64,000 bases of DNA from Gammaproteobacteria bacterium. Its GTDB lineage: Bacteria; Pseudomonadota; Gammaproteobacteria; Arenicellales; Poriferihabitantaceae. A program made the position numbers and the translations under genes. Positions 28,678 to 39,101 of this stretch are shown one piece after another. The notes beneath the pieces were generated by a model. That model searched no databases. It was not told the DNA's origin and saw only the letters and a list, made by a program, of their open reading frames with translations. The stretch lies in the NCBI GenBank assembly GCA_024644945.1, contig JAHEGU010000003.1:1-64000 (forward strand). Reading direction: 5' to 3'. How positions within the stretch are numbered: the first letter of the stretch is position 1; every line of letters starts with the position of its first letter.

Positions 28678-29400
28678 TTAATACATATGCTGGCCACCGT
28701 TGATATCGACGGTGGATCCAGTGATAAATCCTGCCCTATCACTCACAAGGAACAAAACGCCGCGAGCAATGTCATGAGGGTCTCCTAATCTTCCCACTGG
28801 AATAGTGGCGATTATTTTCTCCAGAACTTTTTCCGGTACGGCTTTAACCATGTCCGTGAGGACATAACCTGGCGCGATTGCGTTTACGGTAATACCTTTA
28901 CCCGCGCCCTCCTGAGCCAGGGCTTTGGTAAAACCATGTATACCGGATTTAGCGGCAGCATAGTTGACCTGGCCATACTGACCAGCCTGCCCGTTGATGG
29001 AACCGATGTTAACGATGCGACCGAAGCCTCGCTCGCGCATCCCCTCGATCACACCGCGGCTCATATTGAAACACGAAGAAAGATTGGTTTGTAGTACAGT
29101 ATTCCATTGCTCAAAATCCATGCGATGCATGGTGCCGTCTCGGGTGATACCGGCATTATTAACTAATACTTCAATCGGTCCAACCTCAGCTTCAATCTTA
29201 TCAATTGCAGCGCTACAGGCGTCGAAATCACTCACATCGAACTTATAGGTCGGAATACCGTTTCGCTCGGTGAATTCCTTGGCCGCTTGCTCGTTTCCTG
29301 CGTAGGTGGCAATGACATTGTACCCGGCCTTCTTTAAATCGACGCTAATGGCCTCCCCGATGCCCCGGGTACCGCCGGTGACTACAGCGACTCTGCTCAT
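28678..29400 (-). CDS. phaB: Acetoacetyl-CoA reductase (beta-ketoacyl reductase)
   Basis: 240 aa SDR; VTGGTRGIGEAI, NNAGITRDGTMHRM, YGQVNYAAAKSG. Confidence 0.92.
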   Translation of the reverse strand: MSRVAVVTGGTRGIGEAISVDLKKAGYNVIATYAGNEQAAKEFTERNGIPTYKFDVSDFDACSAAIDKIEAEVGPIEVLVNNAGITRDGTMHRMDFEQWNTVLQTNLSSCFNMSRGVIEGMRERGFGRIVNIGSINGQAGQYGQVNYAAAKSGIHGFTKALAQEGAGKGITVNAIAPGYVLTDMVKAVPEKVLEKIIATIPVGRLGDPHDIARGVLFLVSDRAGFITGSTVDINGGQHMY

Positions 29401-29553: not shown

Positions 29554-31350
29554 TCAGTGATCTTCGCCTAACCTTACTTTAACGTAACTGCCAGGCGCAT
29601 CTTCAATGACCTTCAGTTTTCCGTCTCCAGGTTTTCGTGCCGGTACTTTCTTTCCGGCCTTTCGGCTGATCCAACGCTGCCATTCCGGCCACCATGATCC
29701 TTCGTTCTGTTCAGCGGATGCAAACCATTTTTCTGGATTTGCCGGTGGTTTTTTGGTCACCCGGTAACCGTATTTTTTCTCACTGGGTGGGTTTACTATG
29801 CCTGCGATGTGACCAGATCCTCCCAGGATAAACTGAACCGGGCCAGAGAACAATTTGGCCCCCGCATAAGTCGACTTCCACGGGGCGATATGATCTTCGA
29901 TGGTGGAGACAAAGCAAATCGGAACATCCACGGTGGAAAGATCAATTTCAACACCGTCAATACTGATCCCGCCAGGCTGACACAGAAGATTATCAATATA
30001 GAAGTTCTGCAGATACCAGCTGTGCATTGTTGCGGGCATTCGGGTTGAGTCTGAGTTCCAGTAAAGCAGGTCAAATGGCCGGGGATCATTACCCAGCAAG
30101 TAGTTATTAATATAGAACGACCAAATCAAATCGTTGGCGCGTAACATGTTGAAGGTGGTCGCCATGGAACTCCCTTCGAGGTATCCGTTGTCCTGCATCT
30201 TGAGGTCGAGGTTATCTACCTGTTTCTGGTCGACGAATACACCCAGCTCCCCAGGATCGGAATAGTCCAGCATCGTAGTAAGCAAGGTGGCGCTGGTAAT
30301 GCGGTCGTCACCGGTGGCTTTGAAGTAAGCCAGGGCGGTTGCCAGTAACGCGCCGCCAATACAGTAGCCAACCGCGTTGACCTTGCTCTGGCCGGTTGCC
30401 TTCTCAATAGCGCTCAGCGCGGCACCGACTCCATCGATGACATAATCCTCAAAACCAGTATCACGATAACTTTCATCGGGATTGATCCATGACACGACGA
30501 ATACAGTGTGCCCTTGGCCGACCAACCATTTGATCAGAGAATTCTTTGGTTGAAGGTCCAGCACATAGTATTTGTTGATCCACGGTGGAATGATCAGCAA
30601 TGGCTTGGTGTAGGCAGATTTGCTAGTTGGAGTGTATTGCAGTAATTCCAGCATTCGATTGCGAAATACTACCTTACCCGGAGTGGTCGCGACGTTCTTA
30701 CCCAGCTCAAATGCTTCAGTATCCGTCATGGTGATTTGCAGGGAGCCATTGCCTTTCTTAAGATCCCCGAGCATGTTTTTCAGGCCTTTGACCAAATTTT
30801 CGCCATTGGACTCAATGGTTTTTTCAATCACCGCCGGATTAGTGGTCGCAAAATTGGTGGGCGACAGACTGTCAAGGTAGCGCTCGGTAAAGAAAGCGAC
30901 TTTTTCAGCAGTCTGTTTATCGAGACCGTCAACATCGGTGACCAGATTGCGCGCCCAGCGTGATGTCAGAAGATAAGACTGCTTGATCAAGTTATACACA
31001 GGCTGGTCCTGCCAGGCTTCGTGCCGGAACCGGCGATCGCCTTTTTGCTCCGTAATCACCGGATCGGCGTTCTCCCCCCCCATCAACGCCAGTGCGCTTT
31101 GATGGTAGAGCTTCATTGCATCCTGCCAATATTGCAGCCCAGCCTCAAATACTTTCTCTGGATTCTTCGAGATCACTTCAAACCATGCTGAGCACGCTTC
31201 GCTCAGATTAAAAGGATCATGGTTAAAGTGATTATTACCATTTGAAATCTCTCTAAGCAGCGATTCTAATTGCTTGATATTGTTGGCTAATATCTCAGAC
31301 GGATCAGTTTGTTCAGGAGTCGAGTCGGTATTATTTTGATTTTCTGACAT
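29554..31350 (-). CDS. phaC: Class I poly(R)-hydroxyalkanoic acid synthase PhaC
   Basis: 598 aa; LLIIPPWINKYYVLDLQPKNSLIKWLVGQGHTVFVVSWINPD, NAVGYCIGGALLATALAY. Confidence 0.95.
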   Translation of the reverse strand: MSENQNNTDSTPEQTDPSEILANNIKQLESLLREISNGNNHFNHDPFNLSEACSAWFEVISKNPEKVFEAGLQYWQDAMKLYHQSALALMGGENADPVITEQKGDRRFRHEAWQDQPVYNLIKQSYLLTSRWARNLVTDVDGLDKQTAEKVAFFTERYLDSLSPTNFATTNPAVIEKTIESNGENLVKGLKNMLGDLKKGNGSLQITMTDTEAFELGKNVATTPGKVVFRNRMLELLQYTPTSKSAYTKPLLIIPPWINKYYVLDLQPKNSLIKWLVGQGHTVFVVSWINPDESYRDTGFEDYVIDGVGAALSAIEKATGQSKVNAVGYCIGGALLATALAYFKATGDDRITSATLLTTMLDYSDPGELGVFVDQKQVDNLDLKMQDNGYLEGSSMATTFNMLRANDLIWSFYINNYLLGNDPRPFDLLYWNSDSTRMPATMHSWYLQNFYIDNLLCQPGGISIDGVEIDLSTVDVPICFVSTIEDHIAPWKSTYAGAKLFSGPVQFILGGSGHIAGIVNPPSEKKYGYRVTKKPPANPEKWFASAEQNEGSWWPEWQRWISRKAGKKVPARKPGDGKLKVIEDAPGSYVKVRLGEDH

Positions 31351-31400: not shown

Positions 31401-31862
31401 CTATTTAGTTTTGGCCAGCGTATCTCGGAGTTCGTCGAGATTTTCCTTCATTCGCTGTTCCACCTTTTCGGACATATCGCCGTAAATACCCTCGATCATC
31501 CCAGCGATTTCAGTGAAATTATCCATGGACTTATTCATAGCGTTTTCAATCAGATTGATATTTTTTTCGGCCATTTCAGAGGGCTCAGAATCCGACATCG
31601 ACTGGACCGCTTCTGCAGCTTCTGAGAGCGCGGTCTGCATCATTTCGGCTTGTCTCTTAAGTAATGACTGGGCGCCAGAGACAGCGGCCTGATTAGCTTG
31701 CATCATGGTTTCAAAATTCTTGCGTTGAGATTCTGCGATTGCGCTGGGATCAAGATTGGCAACAGGTGAACTGGAAAGCATTTCCTGGAATTGCTGGGCC
31801 AACTTGGCAGGGTCCATCTGATTGATTAGGTCACTGAAATCAAAGGGGTTTTTACTTGACAT
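31401..31862 (-). CDS. Phasin family protein
   Basis: MSSKNPFDFSDLINQMDPAKLAQQFQEM... low-complexity helical phasin; ORF track opens at 31898 but MSSKNPF at 31862 leaves the palindromic operator upstream of the gene. Confidence 0.8.
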   Translation of the reverse strand: MSSKNPFDFSDLINQMDPAKLAQQFQEMLSSSPVANLDPSAIAESQRKNFETMMQANQAAVSGAQSLLKRQAEMMQTALSEAAEAVQSMSDSEPSEMAEKNINLIENAMNKSMDNFTEIAGMIEGIYGDMSEKVEQRMKENLDELRDTLAKTK

Positions 31863-31885
31863 GGGATATTCCTCTAGATCATAAT

Positions 31886-31900
31886 TTGTGCAGTGCACAA
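31886..31900. promoter_or_regulatory. Putative PhaR operator, TTGTGCAGTGCACAA (perfect palindrome)
   Basis: 7+1+7 perfect inverted repeat between divergent phasin and phaR genes; repeated at other pha promoters. Confidence 0.75.
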
Positions 31901-32028
31901 TAACGTATTTTATGGATTTTTAAGGTTTTGTCAAGAACCAAGGCAATCACGCCACACAGTCTTGACAGACATAGTATCATCAAATACTTAGACACTTTTA
32001 TTCAGACTATTACTGAGCCTGCATCACG

Positions 32029-32502
32029 ATGAGCGACGAATCTATTAGAACGATCAAGAAATACCCGAACCGGCGTATTTACGACACCCATGATAGTAAG
32101 TACATTACGATCAATGATGTGCGGGATATGGTTGTGGAAGGTGTTGAATTTAAAGTGATCGACACCCAGTCAAAAAAAGACATCACACGCAGTATTCTGC
32201 TGCAAATTATTATCGATCAGGAGTCTGAAAATGATCCATTGTTTTCCACCGATAATCTGCAGCACTTCATTCGGTATTATGGTGAAAACCAGCAACAGGG
32301 ATTTTCCGACTTTATCAACCAGAGTCTCTCGTTTTTTCAACGGCAGCAGGAACAGTTCCAGTCGAATATGAGCGACATCATTGAGAATAATCCGGTCAAA
32401 GTGTGGTCTGACATCAGCAAACAAAATATGGAAATGTGGCAGCAGATGCAGGGAGCATTTTTTGGCCAGGATAAGCAGGAAGACAAAAAGTCCAAGGATT
32501 AG
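32029..32502 (+). CDS. phaR: Polyhydroxyalkanoate synthesis repressor PhaR
   Basis: 157 aa; RTIKKYPNRRIYDTHDSKYITINDVRDMVVEGVEFKVIDTQSKKDITRSILLQIIIDQE. Confidence 0.95.
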   Translation: MSDESIRTIKKYPNRRIYDTHDSKYITINDVRDMVVEGVEFKVIDTQSKKDITRSILLQIIIDQESENDPLFSTDNLQHFIRYYGENQQQGFSDFINQSLSFFQRQQEQFQSNMSDIIENNPVKVWSDISKQNMEMWQQMQGAFFGQDKQEDKKSKD

Positions 32503-32685
32503 TGGGCCCCCAGCACCATTTCCTGGATCTCCGTTTACGCTCGTAAACCTTGGTTTGGTCCGCTCTGAGTAACGCTCACAGCGGGCTGCGTACACGCTGA
32601 TATTCGTCTTACGCTGGCGGAACATCACCGATCTGGAGGTTTTTCGAAAATTGCCTGCCCTTGACATCAGCGTCTCAACTTATTA

Positions 32686-32715
32686 TGGTGCAGCGCACAA
32701 TGTTGCATCGCAGCA
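32686..32715. promoter_or_regulatory. Two tandem putative PhaR half-palindromes (TGGTGCAGCGCACAA + TGTTGCATCGCAGCA)
   Basis: Abutting 15-mers matching the operator pattern, upstream of the second phaB. Confidence 0.6.
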
Positions 32716-32750
32716 TTAGCTTGTTCTAATAATCAATCCTGAGGTTTGAG

Positions 32751-33497
32751 ATGTCTAAAAGAATTGCGTTGATTACTGGAGGTACCGGCGGTATTGGCAC
32801 TGCCACATGCAAGGAACTATACGATCGAGGCTGCACCATCATAGCCGGTTATTTTCCCCCCGAAAAAGAATTGGCCGAATCCTGGCAGAAACATAACTCT
32901 GAACAGGGGTACGATTTTACTCTCGCTCCGGTTGATGTTACCGATTACGACAGTGCCAAAAGCATGGTCGAGCACGTCGAGACATTACACGGTGCCATCG
33001 ATATTCTAGTTAATTGTGCCGGAATTACTCGTGATAAAACTTTGAAAAGGATGACCCCGGATCAATGGAAGGCGGTGATCAACACTAACCTGGACAGCGC
33101 CTTTAACATCACCCAGCCGATTGTCGCCGGCATGCTGGAACGTGGATTCGGTCGTATCATCAATATTGCTTCAGTAAATGGTCAGAAGGGACAGTTCGGT
33201 CAGGCCAACTACTCGGCTGCTAAAGCCGGTCTGCATGGATTTACAATGGCGGTAGCACAGGAGACGGCGTCTAAAGGTGTTACTGTGAATACAATCTCGC
33301 CTGGCTACGTTTCTACCGCGATGACGATGGCGATGCCTCAGGATGTTTTGGATAACATTGTTGATCAGGTCCCTGTCGGTCGAATGGGAACGCCGGAAGA
33401 GATTGCTTTTACCGTGGCCTGGTTGGCTGATGAGCGCAATGGGTACACCACGGGCGCTAACATACCGGTTAATGGCGGAATGTTTATGAGCGCCTAA
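32751..33497 (+). CDS. phaB: Acetoacetyl-CoA reductase (second copy)
   Basis: 248 aa SDR; LITGGTGGIGTATCKEL, NCAGITRDKTLKRMTPDQWKAVINTNL, FGQANYSAAKAGLHGF. Confidence 0.92.
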   Translation: MSKRIALITGGTGGIGTATCKELYDRGCTIIAGYFPPEKELAESWQKHNSEQGYDFTLAPVDVTDYDSAKSMVEHVETLHGAIDILVNCAGITRDKTLKRMTPDQWKAVINTNLDSAFNITQPIVAGMLERGFGRIINIASVNGQKGQFGQANYSAAKAGLHGFTMAVAQETASKGVTVNTISPGYVSTAMTMAMPQDVLDNIVDQVPVGRMGTPEEIAFTVAWLADERNGYTTGANIPVNGGMFMSA

Positions 33498-33510
33498 AGG
33501 GCGCAAAAAA

Positions 33511-33535
33511 GCCGCTGCTTTGCGGCAGCGGCTTT
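33511..33535. terminator. Bidirectional rho-independent terminator
   Basis: aaaaaaGCCGCTGCtttgcgGCAGCGGCttta hairpin between convergent phaB and phasin genes. Confidence 0.85.
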
Positions 33536-33554
33536 ATCTGTTTAAAAGTCGCGG

Positions 33555-33908
33555 TTAAGCAGCTTTCTTTACAGCAGCCGAAACGGTTTTAACGTTGTTT
33601 TCAGCTAGATCACGAGCTTCTTCAATGAACTGAGCGTTCAGTTCACCGAATGCTTTCACGTCAGAAGTTACGCGAGCGGTGATTTCTTCCGCAACGTTCT
33701 TCTGATTCTCTGCATATGTTTTGAAGTCGTCAGCATTGCGAACTTCAAGACCGGCGTTCATGTTTTCAAGACCAAGCTTGGCGTATGCCTGCAGGCTTGC
33801 CATTTGCATATTGAATGCGGTCTCGGCGTTTTTGACAACCAGTTTGTTGAAAGCAACAACTGGTGCGATTGCAGCTTCGAACTGCTTGGCTTCAGTAACT
33901 TTTGCCAT
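33555..33908 (-). CDS. Phasin family protein (PF09361-like)
   Basis: 117 aa; FNKLVVKNAETAFNMQMASLQAYAKLGLENMNAGLEVRNADDFKTYAENQ. Confidence 0.85.
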   Translation of the reverse strand: MAKVTEAKQFEAAIAPVVAFNKLVVKNAETAFNMQMASLQAYAKLGLENMNAGLEVRNADDFKTYAENQKNVAEEITARVTSDVKAFGELNAQFIEEARDLAENNVKTVSAAVKKAA

Positions 33909-33954
33909 TTTGAATCTCCTGATAAAGGTTGGTAATCAAATAAAATACATCAAA

Positions 33955-33996
33955 TTGTGCGGTGCAGCATAACAACATTTATTGTGCAATGCAACA
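33955..33996. promoter_or_regulatory. Two putative PhaR sites (TTGTGCGGTGCAGCA and TTGTGCAATGCAACA)
   Basis: Two 15-mers of the operator pattern at 33955-33969 and 33982-33996, 27 bp apart, between divergent phasin and hydrolase genes. Confidence 0.6.
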
Positions 33997-34015
33997 AAAA
34001 TTACGATAGTTTTAA

Positions 34016-34891
34016 ATGACTGATATTAATAAAGAAATTGTTTGCCGTTCGGGGCAGGTTGAATCCGCTACCGCGGATGGGCGGCGTCATCAGGTGCGCT
34101 GGACAGAGTGGGGTGAAGTCACTAATCCCAAACTGTTACTGTGTGCCCATGGGCTTTCTCGAAATGGTCGTGATTTCGACTACCTGGCGCGAGCGGCGGC
34201 GGCAGATTACCGTGTGATCTGCCCGGACTATCCTGGTCGCGGCGCCAGTGACCGGCTTGCAAACCCTGATTACTACCGCAACGAGCAGTATTTGCTCGAT
34301 ACACTGAAAATCCTTGATTCCATAGAGTATGAATGCCTCGACTGGGTAGGCACATCAATGGGTGGTTTGATTGGGATAGGCTTGGCGTCGATGCCAAATC
34401 AGCCCATTGGACGAATGGTAATTAATGATGTCGGCGCGTTCATTCCCGGTGATGCACTGGCATTGATCAATGAGTACTTATGTGAGCAGCCGTTATTCGA
34501 GACGCTTGAACAAGCGGAAGATTACTATCGCACCGTATATGCCAGTTTCGGTCCTTTAGAGGATGAGCACTATCGACATCTGGTCGAACACGGTGTGGCC
34601 AGTAACGAGAGTGGTGTTGGGTATATTTTGAACTACGACCCGGCGATGATAGATCAGTTTGTTTCGCTCGAATGCAAAGACATTGAGATCTGGGACTTGT
34701 GGGAAAAAGTCGATATTCCGACACTGATTATTCGCGGGCAAAAATCCGGATTGTTGCTGAAGCCAACTGTCGAGCAGATGAAGCAACGTCATCCTGGTGC
34801 AGAATCGGTTGAATTCGCCAATTGTGCTCACGCACCGTCTCTAATGGTGCCGCAGCAGATTGAAACGGTTGTCGAGTGGCTCAAGAGATAA
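34016..34891 (+). CDS. Alpha/beta hydrolase
   Basis: 291 aa; LLLCAHGLSRNGRDFDYLARAAA, LDWVGTSMGGLIGIGLASMP; location suggests a role in PHA or hydroxybutyrate metabolism. Confidence 0.85.
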   Translation: MTDINKEIVCRSGQVESATADGRRHQVRWTEWGEVTNPKLLLCAHGLSRNGRDFDYLARAAAADYRVICPDYPGRGASDRLANPDYYRNEQYLLDTLKILDSIEYECLDWVGTSMGGLIGIGLASMPNQPIGRMVINDVGAFIPGDALALINEYLCEQPLFETLEQAEDYYRTVYASFGPLEDEHYRHLVEHGVASNESGVGYILNYDPAMIDQFVSLECKDIEIWDLWEKVDIPTLIIRGQKSGLLLKPTVEQMKQRHPGAESVEFANCAHAPSLMVPQQIETVVEWLKR

Positions 34892-35022
34892 CCACTGCTT
34901 CTGTGGTGTATTTTTAATTTTTTGAAAACGAAGTTCGGCTGTCATGCTATTCGACCATTGCTTGAAAATTGTGGCGGGAGGGTTTGACATTGCAATAGAG
35001 TAGGCCGATCGGTATAATAATT

Positions 35023-35037
35023 TTGTGCAGTGCACAA
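35023..35037. promoter_or_regulatory. Putative PhaR operator, TTGTGCAGTGCACAA
   Basis: Identical 15-mer to 31886-31900, upstream of phaA. Confidence 0.75.
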
Positions 35038-35084: not shown

Positions 35085-36263
35085 ATGACAGAAGTTGTCA
35101 TCGCCAGCGCCACCAGAACCGCTATTGGTGCCTTCCTGGGCGGTCTTTCATCCTTACCCGCATCCAAATTAGGAGAAATCGCTATAGCCGAGTCCCTTAC
35201 CCGTGCCGGTATGCAGCCGGATGAAGTATCTGAAGTCATCATGGGGCAGGTGTTAACTGCAGGAGTTGGGCAGAATGCAGCGCGGCAAGCGGCAGTAAAT
35301 GCGGGGATTCCTGCGGATCGCACCGCAGTGACCATCAACCAGGTATGTGGTTCCGGCGTCAGATCGATAGCGATGGGATGCCAGGCCATCAAAGCCGGCG
35401 ATAGCGAGGTGGTGGTCGCGGGTGGTCAGGAAAACATGAGTCATTCGGCCCACGCCGCGCAGATGCGCACGGGTCAGAAGATGGGTCCCTTAAACCTCGT
35501 TGATACGATGATTGTAGATGGATTGTGGGATGCTTTTAATCACTACCATATGGGTACGACCGCGGAAAACGTTGCCGACAAATGGGAGATCAGCAGGGAA
35601 CAGCAAGATCAGTTTGCTGCGGCTTCTCAGCAAAAGACAGAAACAGCTCAGGCCGCTGGCAAATTCAAAGATGAAATTGTTTCTGTCACGGTGCCCGGTC
35701 GCAAGGGTGACACGGTTGTTGACACTGACGAACATCCGAAACATGGCACTACCGCCGAGACGCTAGCGAAATTACGACCGGCATTTAGTAAGGAAGGGAG
35801 CGTGACTGCAGGCAATGCATCGGGTATCAATGATGGTGCGGCGGCTACCGTGCTGATGTCTGCGGAAAATGCTGAGAAAAGAGGTATTACACCATTGGCA
35901 ACTATCCGTTCGTGGGCCACTGTCGGTGTTGACCCCGCTGTGATGGGGTCAGGCCCGATACCAGCTAGCCGTCGTGCTCTGCAGCTCGCAGGATGGTCCA
36001 TTGATGACCTGGACCTGATAGAGGCCAACGAAGCGTTTGCGGCGCAAGCTTGCGCGGTCAACAAAGATATGGGTTGGAACACCGATATCGTTAATGTCAA
36101 CGGCGGTGCGATTGCGCTTGGCCATCCAATTGGTGCCTCAGGAACAAGGATTCTGGTCACGCTGTTACACGAAATGCAAAAACGGGAGGCAAGGAAAGGC
36201 CTGGTGACCCTCTGTATTGGCGGCGGTATGGGTATCGCCATGTGCTTAGAAAGACAGAGCTAG
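35085..36263 (+). CDS. phaA: Acetyl-CoA acetyltransferase (beta-ketothiolase)
   Basis: 392 aa; [49 protein letters not shown]. Confidence 0.95.
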
Positions 36264-36264
36264 T

Positions 36265-37326
36265 TTGATTTGGTACGCTGTGGCAACGAATCGCCACAGC
36301 GCGCCTGTGAAAACCAATCTCGAATCTGATTACTATATAACCCCATCGATTTTCTCGGTTGAGAGATTAAAGCTGTTCTCCACCACCTGGCAGTTGCTCG
36401 GACCATTATCACGTCTCGAGAATCCAGGAAGTTACGTTAGCGATGATATCGCCGGAATTAAAGTTGTCGCTATTCGTGGTCAAGACGGAACCCTTCGCGC
36501 TTTCCGTAATGTCTGCCGTCATCGCGGTGCGCAACTGATCGCGGATGGTGCAGGAAGTTGCCGCACCATTCGTTGTCCGTATCACAATTGGGTTTATGAA
36601 GATACCGGAGCCCTTAAGCATGCGCCCTGGTTTGGAGGGGATTCGGATTTCTCCCTTGATCAGTGGCCATTGCGACCGATACACATACAACAATGGCGCA
36701 ACCTGGTCTTTATTTGTATCGAGCCACATCAATTGTTGCTGGATCAACTTGGGGATACAGAAGCCGCGCTTGATGATGTTCTATTAGAAGACTACCACTG
36801 CGTCGATGAGCACAGGGTAGAATTCAGTGCGAATTGGAAAGTGTATACGGACAACTTCGTTGAAGGCTATCACATTCCTGGTATTCACCCTGAGTTTTAT
36901 GCTGCCATTGACTTCGAAAAATTCAGCACCACGGCTGACAACGGTCTAGTGTCCATGAGTGCGCCGACGAAAGAGGATCTGTTTTACAGGGGTCGGTGGT
37001 ACTGGATGTGGCCTAACTGGACGCTCTCGTTGTTCAATGGCGGTATGAATACTTCAAGAATAAATCCGCTCAGTCACAACCGAACAGAACTTATTTATCA
37101 TTTTTACTTTGACCAAAGTCTCTGTGAAGACACTGAATTTAAGGCCAACACGATTGCACGCAATCTCGAAGTTGTGCGCCAGGATTTTCAGATTTGTTTC
37201 GACACCCACAAAAATTATGTTTCGGGAAACTACCACCCCGGGCCTTTGTCTCCGAGACATGAGCAGGGTGTGATGTATTTTCAGGATCGGTATAGGTTAA
37301 ATATTGGTACTGAGAAGGATAACTAA
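36265..37326 (+). CDS. Aromatic-ring-hydroxylating/choline-monooxygenase-like Rieske oxygenase alpha subunit
   Basis: 353 aa; Rieske CRHRGAQLIADGAGSCRTIRCPYHNW and non-heme iron region NWKVYTDNFVEGYHIPGIHP. Confidence 0.9.
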   Translation: MIWYAVATNRHSAPVKTNLESDYYITPSIFSVERLKLFSTTWQLLGPLSRLENPGSYVSDDIAGIKVVAIRGQDGTLRAFRNVCRHRGAQLIADGAGSCRTIRCPYHNWVYEDTGALKHAPWFGGDSDFSLDQWPLRPIHIQQWRNLVFICIEPHQLLLDQLGDTEAALDDVLLEDYHCVDEHRVEFSANWKVYTDNFVEGYHIPGIHPEFYAAIDFEKFSTTADNGLVSMSAPTKEDLFYRGRWYWMWPNWTLSLFNGGMNTSRINPLSHNRTELIYHFYFDQSLCEDTEFKANTIARNLEVVRQDFQICFDTHKNYVSGNYHPGPLSPRHEQGVMYFQDRYRLNIGTEKDN

Positions 37327-37730
37327 TTTACTGGCTGCAATCAGGCCTATTATTATCCTTGGTGCGGAAGATCAAAGTCTCTGATTGTCTGCTGCGCTAT
37401 GTTGAGGCTGTTCGGACTTATCTTCATCTTGGTTGCTGCGGCAAACTTAGCCAAAATGCAGTCCTTCTTGAAGGGTGTTCTGGAGGCTGACCAAACTGCC
37501 TTGGCTGTTGTGTTTCACAGCGTTATCTAGATCAGATTATCGTAATAATTTTCATTACGAGCCTCGGTCTAACAAACGCCATTCCAAGTACATGTTGTCG
37601 TAACATGATGATGCAGTTTTGCAAAACTCTCATTCCGGAGGTCGGGTTGGCTCAGGTAACTAATCAAACTGGCACTGTTGTGACTGAAGCGCTATCCTGC
37701 GCATACAGAAAACATTAAAGAGTAACGGCA

Positions 37731-39101
37731 ATGAAAGGTTTGATGACACTTGAAGAATTGAAAGCGGAGGTTAGTGAAGGATCGATCGATACAGTGCTCG
37801 TATGTCAGGTGGACATGCAGAGTAGACTGATGGGTAAGCGCTTTCATGCTGATTTTTTCATTGATAGCGCCTGGGAGGAGACTCACAGCTGCAACTATCT
37901 GTTGGCCACAGATTTTGAAATGGAAACCGTGGGAGGATACCGATCGACTAGCTGGGCGGCAGGCTATGGAGACTACACCATGAAGCCTGATCTCACGACC
38001 TTACGACGTGTTCCCTGGTTGGAGGGAACCGCAATGGTCCTATGCGATGTGCTCGACCATCATGGTCACGAAGATGTACCGCATTCTCCGCGAGCGATAC
38101 TTAAGAAACAGCTGGAGCGATTGGATCAGATGGGAATGAGTGCGATGATGGCTTCTGAACTGGAGTTCTTTTTATTTAATACCAGCTATACAGAGTGCCA
38201 GCGGGCAGGATATCGCGACATGGAACTTGCGGGCACTTACAACGAGGATTACCATATTTTTCAAACCACCAAGGAAGAGGATGTAATGCGTTCAATTCGC
38301 AATGGACTGCATGGTGCCGGAATACCGGTGGAATGTTCAAAAGGTGAAGCCTGTGCCGGTCAAGAAGAGATCAATATATTGTACGCGGATGCGCTGACTT
38401 CAGCGGATAATCATGTGATTGTAAAGAACGGTTGTAAGGAGATTGCATGGAGTAAGGGTAAGTCACTTACGTTTCTGGCTAAATGGGATACCGATAAGGC
38501 AGGGAGTTCTTCCCATATTCATCAGAGTTTATGGAATAAAAATCGAACCGAGTCTTTGTTTTATGATTCCGGCGCAGAATACGGTATGTCACCACTGATG
38601 CGAAGTTATCTGGCTGGGCTATTGTCCCATGCGAGTGAGATAACCTGTTTCTTAGCTCCATTCATTAATTCTTACAAACGTTTCCAGTCAGGAACTTTCG
38701 CGCCTACCCGGGCTATCTGGAGTCCTGATAATCGTACTGCAGGTTATCGTCTCTGTGCCGAAGATACCAAGAGCGTAAGAGTTGAATGCCGGGTAGGGGG
38801 CTCAGACCTGAATCCATATCTTGCCTATGCGGCGTTAATTGCCGCGGGCATCAACGGAATAGAAAATCAGCTCGAACTCGAGCCGGCCTTCCAGGGTGAC
38901 GCCTATCATGGCGAAGACTTGCGCGAAATCCCCGGGACTCTGCGTGCCGCAATTAGCGCGTTGGATGCATCTGATATGTTGCGCTCGGCGTTTGGAGATC
39001 AGGTCATTGACCACTATGTGCATGCTGCCAGTTGGGAGCAGAAGGAATTCGACAGGGTGGTGACTGACTGGGAAATTGCCCGAGGATTTGAACGGGCATG
39101 A
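37731..39101 (+). CDS. Glutamine synthetase family protein (gamma-glutamyl-amine ligase type)
   Basis: 456 aa; MASELEFFLF, KAGSSSHIHQSLWNKN, RLCAEDTKSVRVECRVGGSDLNPYLAYAA. Confidence 0.88.
   Translation: MKGLMTLEELKAEVSEGSIDTVLVCQVDMQSRLMGKRFHADFFIDSAWEETHSCNYLLATDFEMETVGGYRSTSWAAGYGDYTMKPDLTTLRRVPWLEGTAMVLCDVLDHHGHEDVPHSPRAILKKQLERLDQMGMSAMMASELEFFLFNTSYTECQRAGYRDMELAGTYNEDYHIFQTTKEEDVMRSIRNGLHGAGIPVECSKGEACAGQEEINILYADALTSADNHVIVKNGCKEIAWSKGKSLTFLAKWDTDKAGSSSHIHQSLWNKNRTESLFYDSGAEYGMSPLMRSYLAGLLSHASEITCFLAPFINSYKRFQSGTFAPTRAIWSPDNRTAGYRLCAEDTKSVRVECRVGGSDLNPYLAYAALIAAGINGIENQLELEPAFQGDAYHGEDLREIPGTLRAAISALDASDMLRSAFGDQVIDHYVHAASWEQKEFDRVVTDWEIARGFERA

Follow-up and report, generated by a model that had tools for sequence, protein, structure and literature searches.

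Six palindromes in the pha gene cluster are very probably (we estimate about 0.93) operators of the PhaR protein encoded at 32029-32502, which would repress the pha promoters until PHB draws PhaR off. The palindrome sequences, their enrichment and conservation, the geometry of the promoters and the identities of the genes are direct observations; PhaR binding, repression and release by PHB would follow by analogy with characterised relatives. The predicted local PhaR regulon is well supported and comprises two phasins, phaC-phaB1, phaB2, phaA and probably a hydrolase. A sequence-only reading of this DNA had already proposed a PhaR operator, and the consensus match, the presence of phaR in the cluster, conservation at orthologous promoters and the association of tandem sites with PhaR all support that proposal. 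The cluster can thus be regarded as a new and well-supported case of an established type of regulation. The binding-site palindrome of PhaR is already known; what appears to be added here is a site built into the -10 box at fixed spacing across Gammaproteobacteria.

Six palindromes concentrate in the pha cluster

The window, i.e. the whole stretch of DNA analysed, comprises 64,000 nt and corresponds to bases 1-64000 of a 130,748-base contig in a genome of 3.79 Mb and 152 contigs. The cluster genes and palindromes are the following:

28678-29400, minus strand: phaB1, SDR-family (acetoacetyl-CoA reductase-like), 240 aa (Pfam PF13561/PF00106)
29554-31350, minus strand: phaC, PHA synthase, 598 aa (Pfam PF07167, E=6.4e-75)
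31401-31862, minus strand: phasin, 153 aa, leads the leftward phaP-phaC-phaB1 group (Pfam PF09361, E=4.4e-13)
31886-31900, unstranded: putative PhaR operator TTGTGCAGTGCACAA between the divergent phasin(phaP-phaC-phaB1) and phaR genes; same position in G003 (L099:10247) and G004 (L100:10106)
32029-32502, plus strand: phaR, PHB/PHA accumulation regulator, 157 aa (Pfam PF07879, E=3.1e-27)
32686-32700, unstranded: putative PhaR operator TGGTGCAGCGCACAA, first of two abutting sites at phaB2; fits TKNTGCRNYGCANMA
32701-32715, unstranded: putative PhaR operator TGTTGCATCGCAGCA, second of the phaB2 pair, 15 bp spacing; fits TKNTGCRNYGCANMA
32751-33497, plus strand: phaB2, SDR-family (acetoacetyl-CoA reductase-like), 248 aa (Pfam PF00106/PF13561)
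33555-33908, minus strand: second phasin, 117 aa, leftward from the hydrolase (Pfam PF09361, E=3.5e-8)
33955-33969, unstranded: putative PhaR operator TTGTGCGGTGCAGCA, completing the phasin -10 TATGCT (33971-33966) when read on the minus strand
33982-33996, unstranded: putative PhaR operator TTGTGCAATGCAACA, with a weak minus-strand -35 TTGCAT (33994-33989) inside it, 17 bp from the -10
34016-34891, plus strand: alpha/beta hydrolase, 291 aa, divergent from the second phasin (Pfam PF00561)
35023-35037, unstranded: putative PhaR operator TTGTGCAGTGCACAA, which the phaA -10 precedes by 4 bp; equivalent site L099:7201
35085-36263, plus strand: phaA, acetyl-CoA acetyltransferase (thiolase), 392 aa (Pfam PF00108/PF02803)

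Direct inspection of the sequence confirmed the coordinates previously assigned to all six palindromes, two of which are perfect copies of the same sequence and four variants. The approximate consensus proposed with them was slightly off, the invariant core being TGC-RNY-GCA. The two phasin genes are the only PF09361 genes found in the genome. After phaA, window positions 36265-39101 hold a ring-hydroxylating (Rieske-like) oxygenase ORF followed by a glutamine-synthetase-like ORF, both named from sequence, and a Rieske-like oxygenase ORF also adjoins the pha genes in G003 and G004.

Allowing up to 3 mismatches, the window contains 9 matches against 2.1 expected from shuffled sequence; 100 shuffles never gave as many as 9. 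The exact 15-mer TTGTGCAGTGCACAA occurs twice genome-wide, both times in this pha cluster. Genome-wide counts were obtained by pattern searches of the contigs, with the reversed pattern as control. In this motif scan, which had been proposed as a check on the PhaR reading, the degenerate consensus TKNTGCRNYGCANMA was found at 17 places in the 3.79 Mb genome versus 1 for the reversed pattern, and 6 of the 17 are the sites listed above, all of which fit it exactly. The proposed restriction of the motif to pha promoters is true of the contig, whose 130,748 bases contain no match besides these six, but not strictly of the genome, where 11 further matches exist, 6 inside ORFs and 5 intergenic.

Candidate targets near matches outside the cluster were considered and rejected. 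The site L031 (TTGTGCGATGCAGCA), 190 bp upstream of pntA, would bring NADPH supply for PhaB into the regulon; it was treated as chance. An equivalent site was absent upstream of pntA in 28 of the 29 relatives scanned, the remaining one having a site at another position, and a TTGACA is present nearer to the gene than L031. The site at grpE (L030) was absent in all 21 relatives scanned, and the PAS-domain gene (L063) beside another intergenic match was not found in relatives. The single matches near pntA and grpE look like chance occurrences, and their random appearance could be extended to all six palindromes as accidents of AT-rich intergenic DNA. Against this stand the density of six palindromes in about 3.2 kb, the near-zero control counts and the conservation found at orthologous promoters, which leave chance a practically negligible probability.

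The sites match the published PhaR consensus and accompany phaR in relatives

The N-terminal PHB_acc_N DNA-binding domain (PF07879) was recognised in PhaR with 94.9 bits (cut-off 25), while PF05233 (PHB_acc) gave a full-length 40-residue match with 26.7 bits versus a cut-off of 27 (E=5.7e-6). No PF07879 gene other than phaR was found in the genome, and phaR sits with phaC, phaA, phaB and the phasins; a PDB search for PhaR found no relative. All six sites fit the published PhaR consensus sequences, namely YTKNTGCRNYGCANMAR in R. eutropha (PMC12849132), TG[N]TGC[N]3GCAA footprinted for PhbF of H. seropedicae, which represses a phasin gene and its own gene (PMC3206438), TGCRNYGCASMA footprinted in B. 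diazoefficiens, where PHB abolishes PhaR binding (PMC6201568), and the core YGCRNYGCR of S. meliloti AniA/PhaR (PMC12542648).

In the congener G003 (L099) sites are present at the same four places, that is at the phaR/phaC divergence, phaB2, phasin/hydrolase and phaA, and G004 (L100), whose cluster has no phaA in this position, carries equivalent sites at the other three. In 945 kb of GTDB genome sequence surrounding 80 phaR homologues, at least five of them the same records as some of the relatives numbered G here, so that the two sets are not independent, we counted 100 sites versus about 0.9 expected. At least one site was present at 48 of these 80 loci, and 367 permuted palindromes gave at most 15 matches there, the top scorers being near-copies of the motif. 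With the strict pattern, no site was found near phaR at many PhaR-bearing loci of xanthomonad-like bacteria and Salinisphaera, among them several of Lysobacter, Pseudoxanthomonas and Salinisphaera within the 80 scanned, which implies an operator of different sequence or position there. Tandem sites were found in 14 of 22 PhaR-bearing relatives versus 1 of 18 without detected PhaR (Fisher p = 2e-4, the relatives not being phylogenetically independent); 14 of the 15 tandem-bearing genomes thus have PhaR, and the exception, G023, is 75% complete.

These distributions also bear on whether the palindromes bind a different regulator of PHB genes, such as a TetR-family fatty-acid/acyl-CoA sensor with a TGC-GCA palindrome. 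Some genomes without detected PhaR, such as G013 and G005 (96-97% complete) with 7 and 4 near-consensus palindromes versus 1 and 0 controls, carry single sites, as such a regulator would allow. However, PhaR sites of the same consensus are reported from three other organisms, the sites cluster around phaR itself, and tandem sites hardly occur outside PhaR-bearing genomes, the incomplete G023 being the one exception. We consider a non-PhaR regulator very unlikely and retain PhaR as the protein that these sites would serve.

In G004, which belongs to the same genus, a multicopy repeat end, GAGCCGCTTGCAAAATTCCAATAGGGACAAGGGAATTGTGCAATGCACAATG, contains a perfect PhaR-type palindrome and occurs in at least 21 copies at contig breaks (e.g. 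L308-L313, L317-L336). It looks like the end of a transposable element and could act as a sink for PhaR.

Putative operators fused to predicted promoter elements at fixed spacing

The following promoters were predicted in the cluster:

31856-31885, plus strand: candidate phaR promoter TTGACA-N18-CATAAT, abuts the operator at 31886; not conserved in L099, L100 and L104
31907-31934, minus strand: predicted sigma-70 promoter of phasin-phaC-phaB1, TTGACA-N16-TAAAAT; the operator begins 6 bp downstream of the -10
31962-31990, plus strand: second phaR promoter candidate, TTGACA (31962)-N17-TACTTA, site-free, downstream of the site at 31886
32661-32689, plus strand: predicted phaB2 promoter TTGACA-N17-TATGGT, -10 fused to the first operator; layout repeated in L099 and L100
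34990-35018, plus strand: predicted phaA promoter TTGCAA-N17-TATAAT (promoter scan)

Two layouts can be distinguished. At phaA and phaP-phaC a separate, normal -10 precedes the putative operator by 4-6 bp, and TTGAC[AT]/TA[AC]AAT boxes resembling the leftward phasin-phaC promoter adjoin the operator in L100 and L104. At phaB2 and the second phasin the putative operator is fused to the predicted -10 (TA + TKNT), exactly 17 bp after the -35, and a second operator would lie at 15-19 bp, immediately downstream, or at 27 bp, overlapping the -35. The 15-bp pairing at phaB2 recurs in L100 and also in L099, there with one off-consensus base in the second site, and the 27-bp pair 33955/33982 is kept in G001, G003, G004, G036 and others.

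A search of 109 genomes of the order for palindrome pairs 15-45 bp apart returned 36 distinct pairs and 0 control matches. Their spacings fall into two classes, 16-19 bp (n=22) and 26-27 bp (n=14), with none between or beyond within the range searched. At class level (369 genomes) 21 further pairs were obtained, 20 of them spaced by 15-21 bp and one by 34 bp; class-wide, the mode of the 15-21 bp spacing is 17. In the short pairs, TTGAC[AT] is followed after 17 bp by a TA directly abutting the operator, and this TA together with the operator's first four bases, TKNT, forms a -10 hexamer (e.g. TATTGT, TATGCT, TATGGT). With spacers of 9-25 bp allowed, the TTGAC-TA-operator module was found at 55 places in 41 of the 369 class genomes, with 0 control matches, and the spacer was exactly 17 bp in 45 of the 55. 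Among 44 proteins tested downstream of the module, at loci from both the order and the class searches, phasins account for 37 and SDR reductases for 3. In the 27-bp pairs the -35 lies inside the distal operator and the -10 is made by the proximal operator, 17 bp apart (TTGCAA and TATGAT in relatives), so that the 27-bp spacing is explained by promoter geometry.

We consider it likely that PhaR control in Gammaproteobacteria uses a conserved, rigid unit, in which TTGAC-N17-TA is fused to the palindrome and a second palindrome is present at 15-19 or 27 bp. The -10 would then consist largely of operator sequence, as would the -35 where the spacing is 27 bp. If so, operator and promoter would be unable to evolve separately, and phasin genes would be recognisable by the unit, which would offer a simple genome-scan signature for those under PhaR control. 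No description of this fused, fixed-spacing geometry was found in the freely accessible PhaR literature consulted, which covers alpha- and beta-proteobacteria.

Three genomes of family f97 (G193, G316 and G418) carry two to six fused TTGAC-N17-TA-operator modules each, which suggests an enlarged set of PhaR-controlled promoters in this family. A 24-bp spacing, unseen elsewhere, occurs in pairs of G027 (C8:66072-66110) and G037 (C219:6484-6522, C307:7860-7898 and C350:5216-5254), in which one member is off-consensus at the centre (e.g. TTGTGCAAAGCACAA).

The position of the sites relative to the promoters also bears on an action of the palindromes in RNA, as small hairpins or terminators in 5' leaders. 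Two of them did appear terminator-like in a simple scan. Since the palindromes overlap the -10/+1 region and are hence partly untranscribed, we reject this reading as highly improbable; moreover, the arms are often mismatched while the TGC/GCA core stays, and one site serves divergent genes on both strands.

Paired sites and the question of cooperative binding

The pairing of sites at two promoters had been taken to suggest cooperative binding. The pairs are real, but cooperativity does not follow from them, as promoter architecture explains their spacing at least as well. An alternative that concerns only the spacing, and leaves the identity of the sites as PhaR operators untouched, is that PhaR dimer or tetramer contacts fix the distance and binding is cooperative; we give this slightly less than even odds. 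It agrees with data from R. eutropha, where binding was sigmoid and a lower PhaR concentration sufficed when two sites were present (PMC3570403, PMC12849132), and with the probable binding of B. diazoefficiens PhaR to two sites as a tetramer (PMC10888616). The 15-18 bp class, moreover, recurs in many families, and its promoter can be formed without the downstream operator. Conversely, the 27-bp class is accounted for by a distal operator that contains the -35, at 17 bp from the -10 fused to the proximal one. Spacings of 16-17 and 27 bp correspond to about 1.5 and 2.6 turns and would place dimers on roughly opposite faces of the DNA, so that a simple side-by-side contact is not favoured and spacing alone is no proof of cooperativity.

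Proposed mechanism and possible autoregulation of phaR

Under the PhaR-operator reading, in cells that offer PhaR no PHB granule surface the protein, probably as one dimer per palindrome, would occupy the -10/+1 region and block RNA polymerase at the promoters of phasin-phaC-phaB1, phaB2, phasin/hydrolase and phaA. Accumulating PHB would draw PhaR onto the granules and the promoters would open. The fused layout likewise predicts repression by steric block of -10/+1, with the spacing set by promoter geometry. PhaR is also able to activate, as at phaP3 of R. eutropha (PMC12849132), and repression at every site of the cluster is consequently not assured.

Control of phaR by its own product, also part of the sequence-only reading, is possible; however, the conserved promoter beside the site at 31886 is the leftward phasin/phaC one. 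The rightward TTGACA-N18-CATAAT abutting this site is absent in G003 and G004. In the congener G001 a site lies 15 bp before phaR, and this position directly before the gene is compatible with autoregulation.

Comparison with known PhaR systems

In R. eutropha H16, phaP1 and phaP3 share with the present cluster the palindrome YTKNTGCRNYGCANMAR and several sites per promoter, and one site lies around the start of a sigma-70 phasin promoter, as here; unlike here, sites are positioned ahead of the -35, around +1 and within the gene (PMC12849132). A search of that report's text found no description of a fused -10/operator or of fixed 16-17/27 bp pairing (PMC12849132). B. diazoefficiens resembles our case in its consensus TGCRNYGCASMA and in having two sites at phaP1, whereas these sites lie on either side of the -35 at a distance of 6 bp and the regulon is much larger, with many non-PHB targets (PMC6201568, PMC10888616). 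S. meliloti AniA/PhaR likewise recognises a palindrome with the YGCRNYGCR core at phasin promoters, and there also at a depolymerase gene (PMC12542648). Its sites are paired at phaP1 and phaP2, as in the cluster described here, but the pairs flank the -35, and its reach extends, unlike here, to exopolysaccharide and central carbon genes (PMC12542648). Activity of the S. meliloti phbA promoter is unaffected by phaR, whereas phaA carries a perfect site here (PMC12542648). For H. seropedicae PhbF autoregulation was demonstrated, while here it is possible; the two systems agree in the TG[N]TGC[N]3GCAA motif and in a promoter placed just upstream of the site (PMC3206438).
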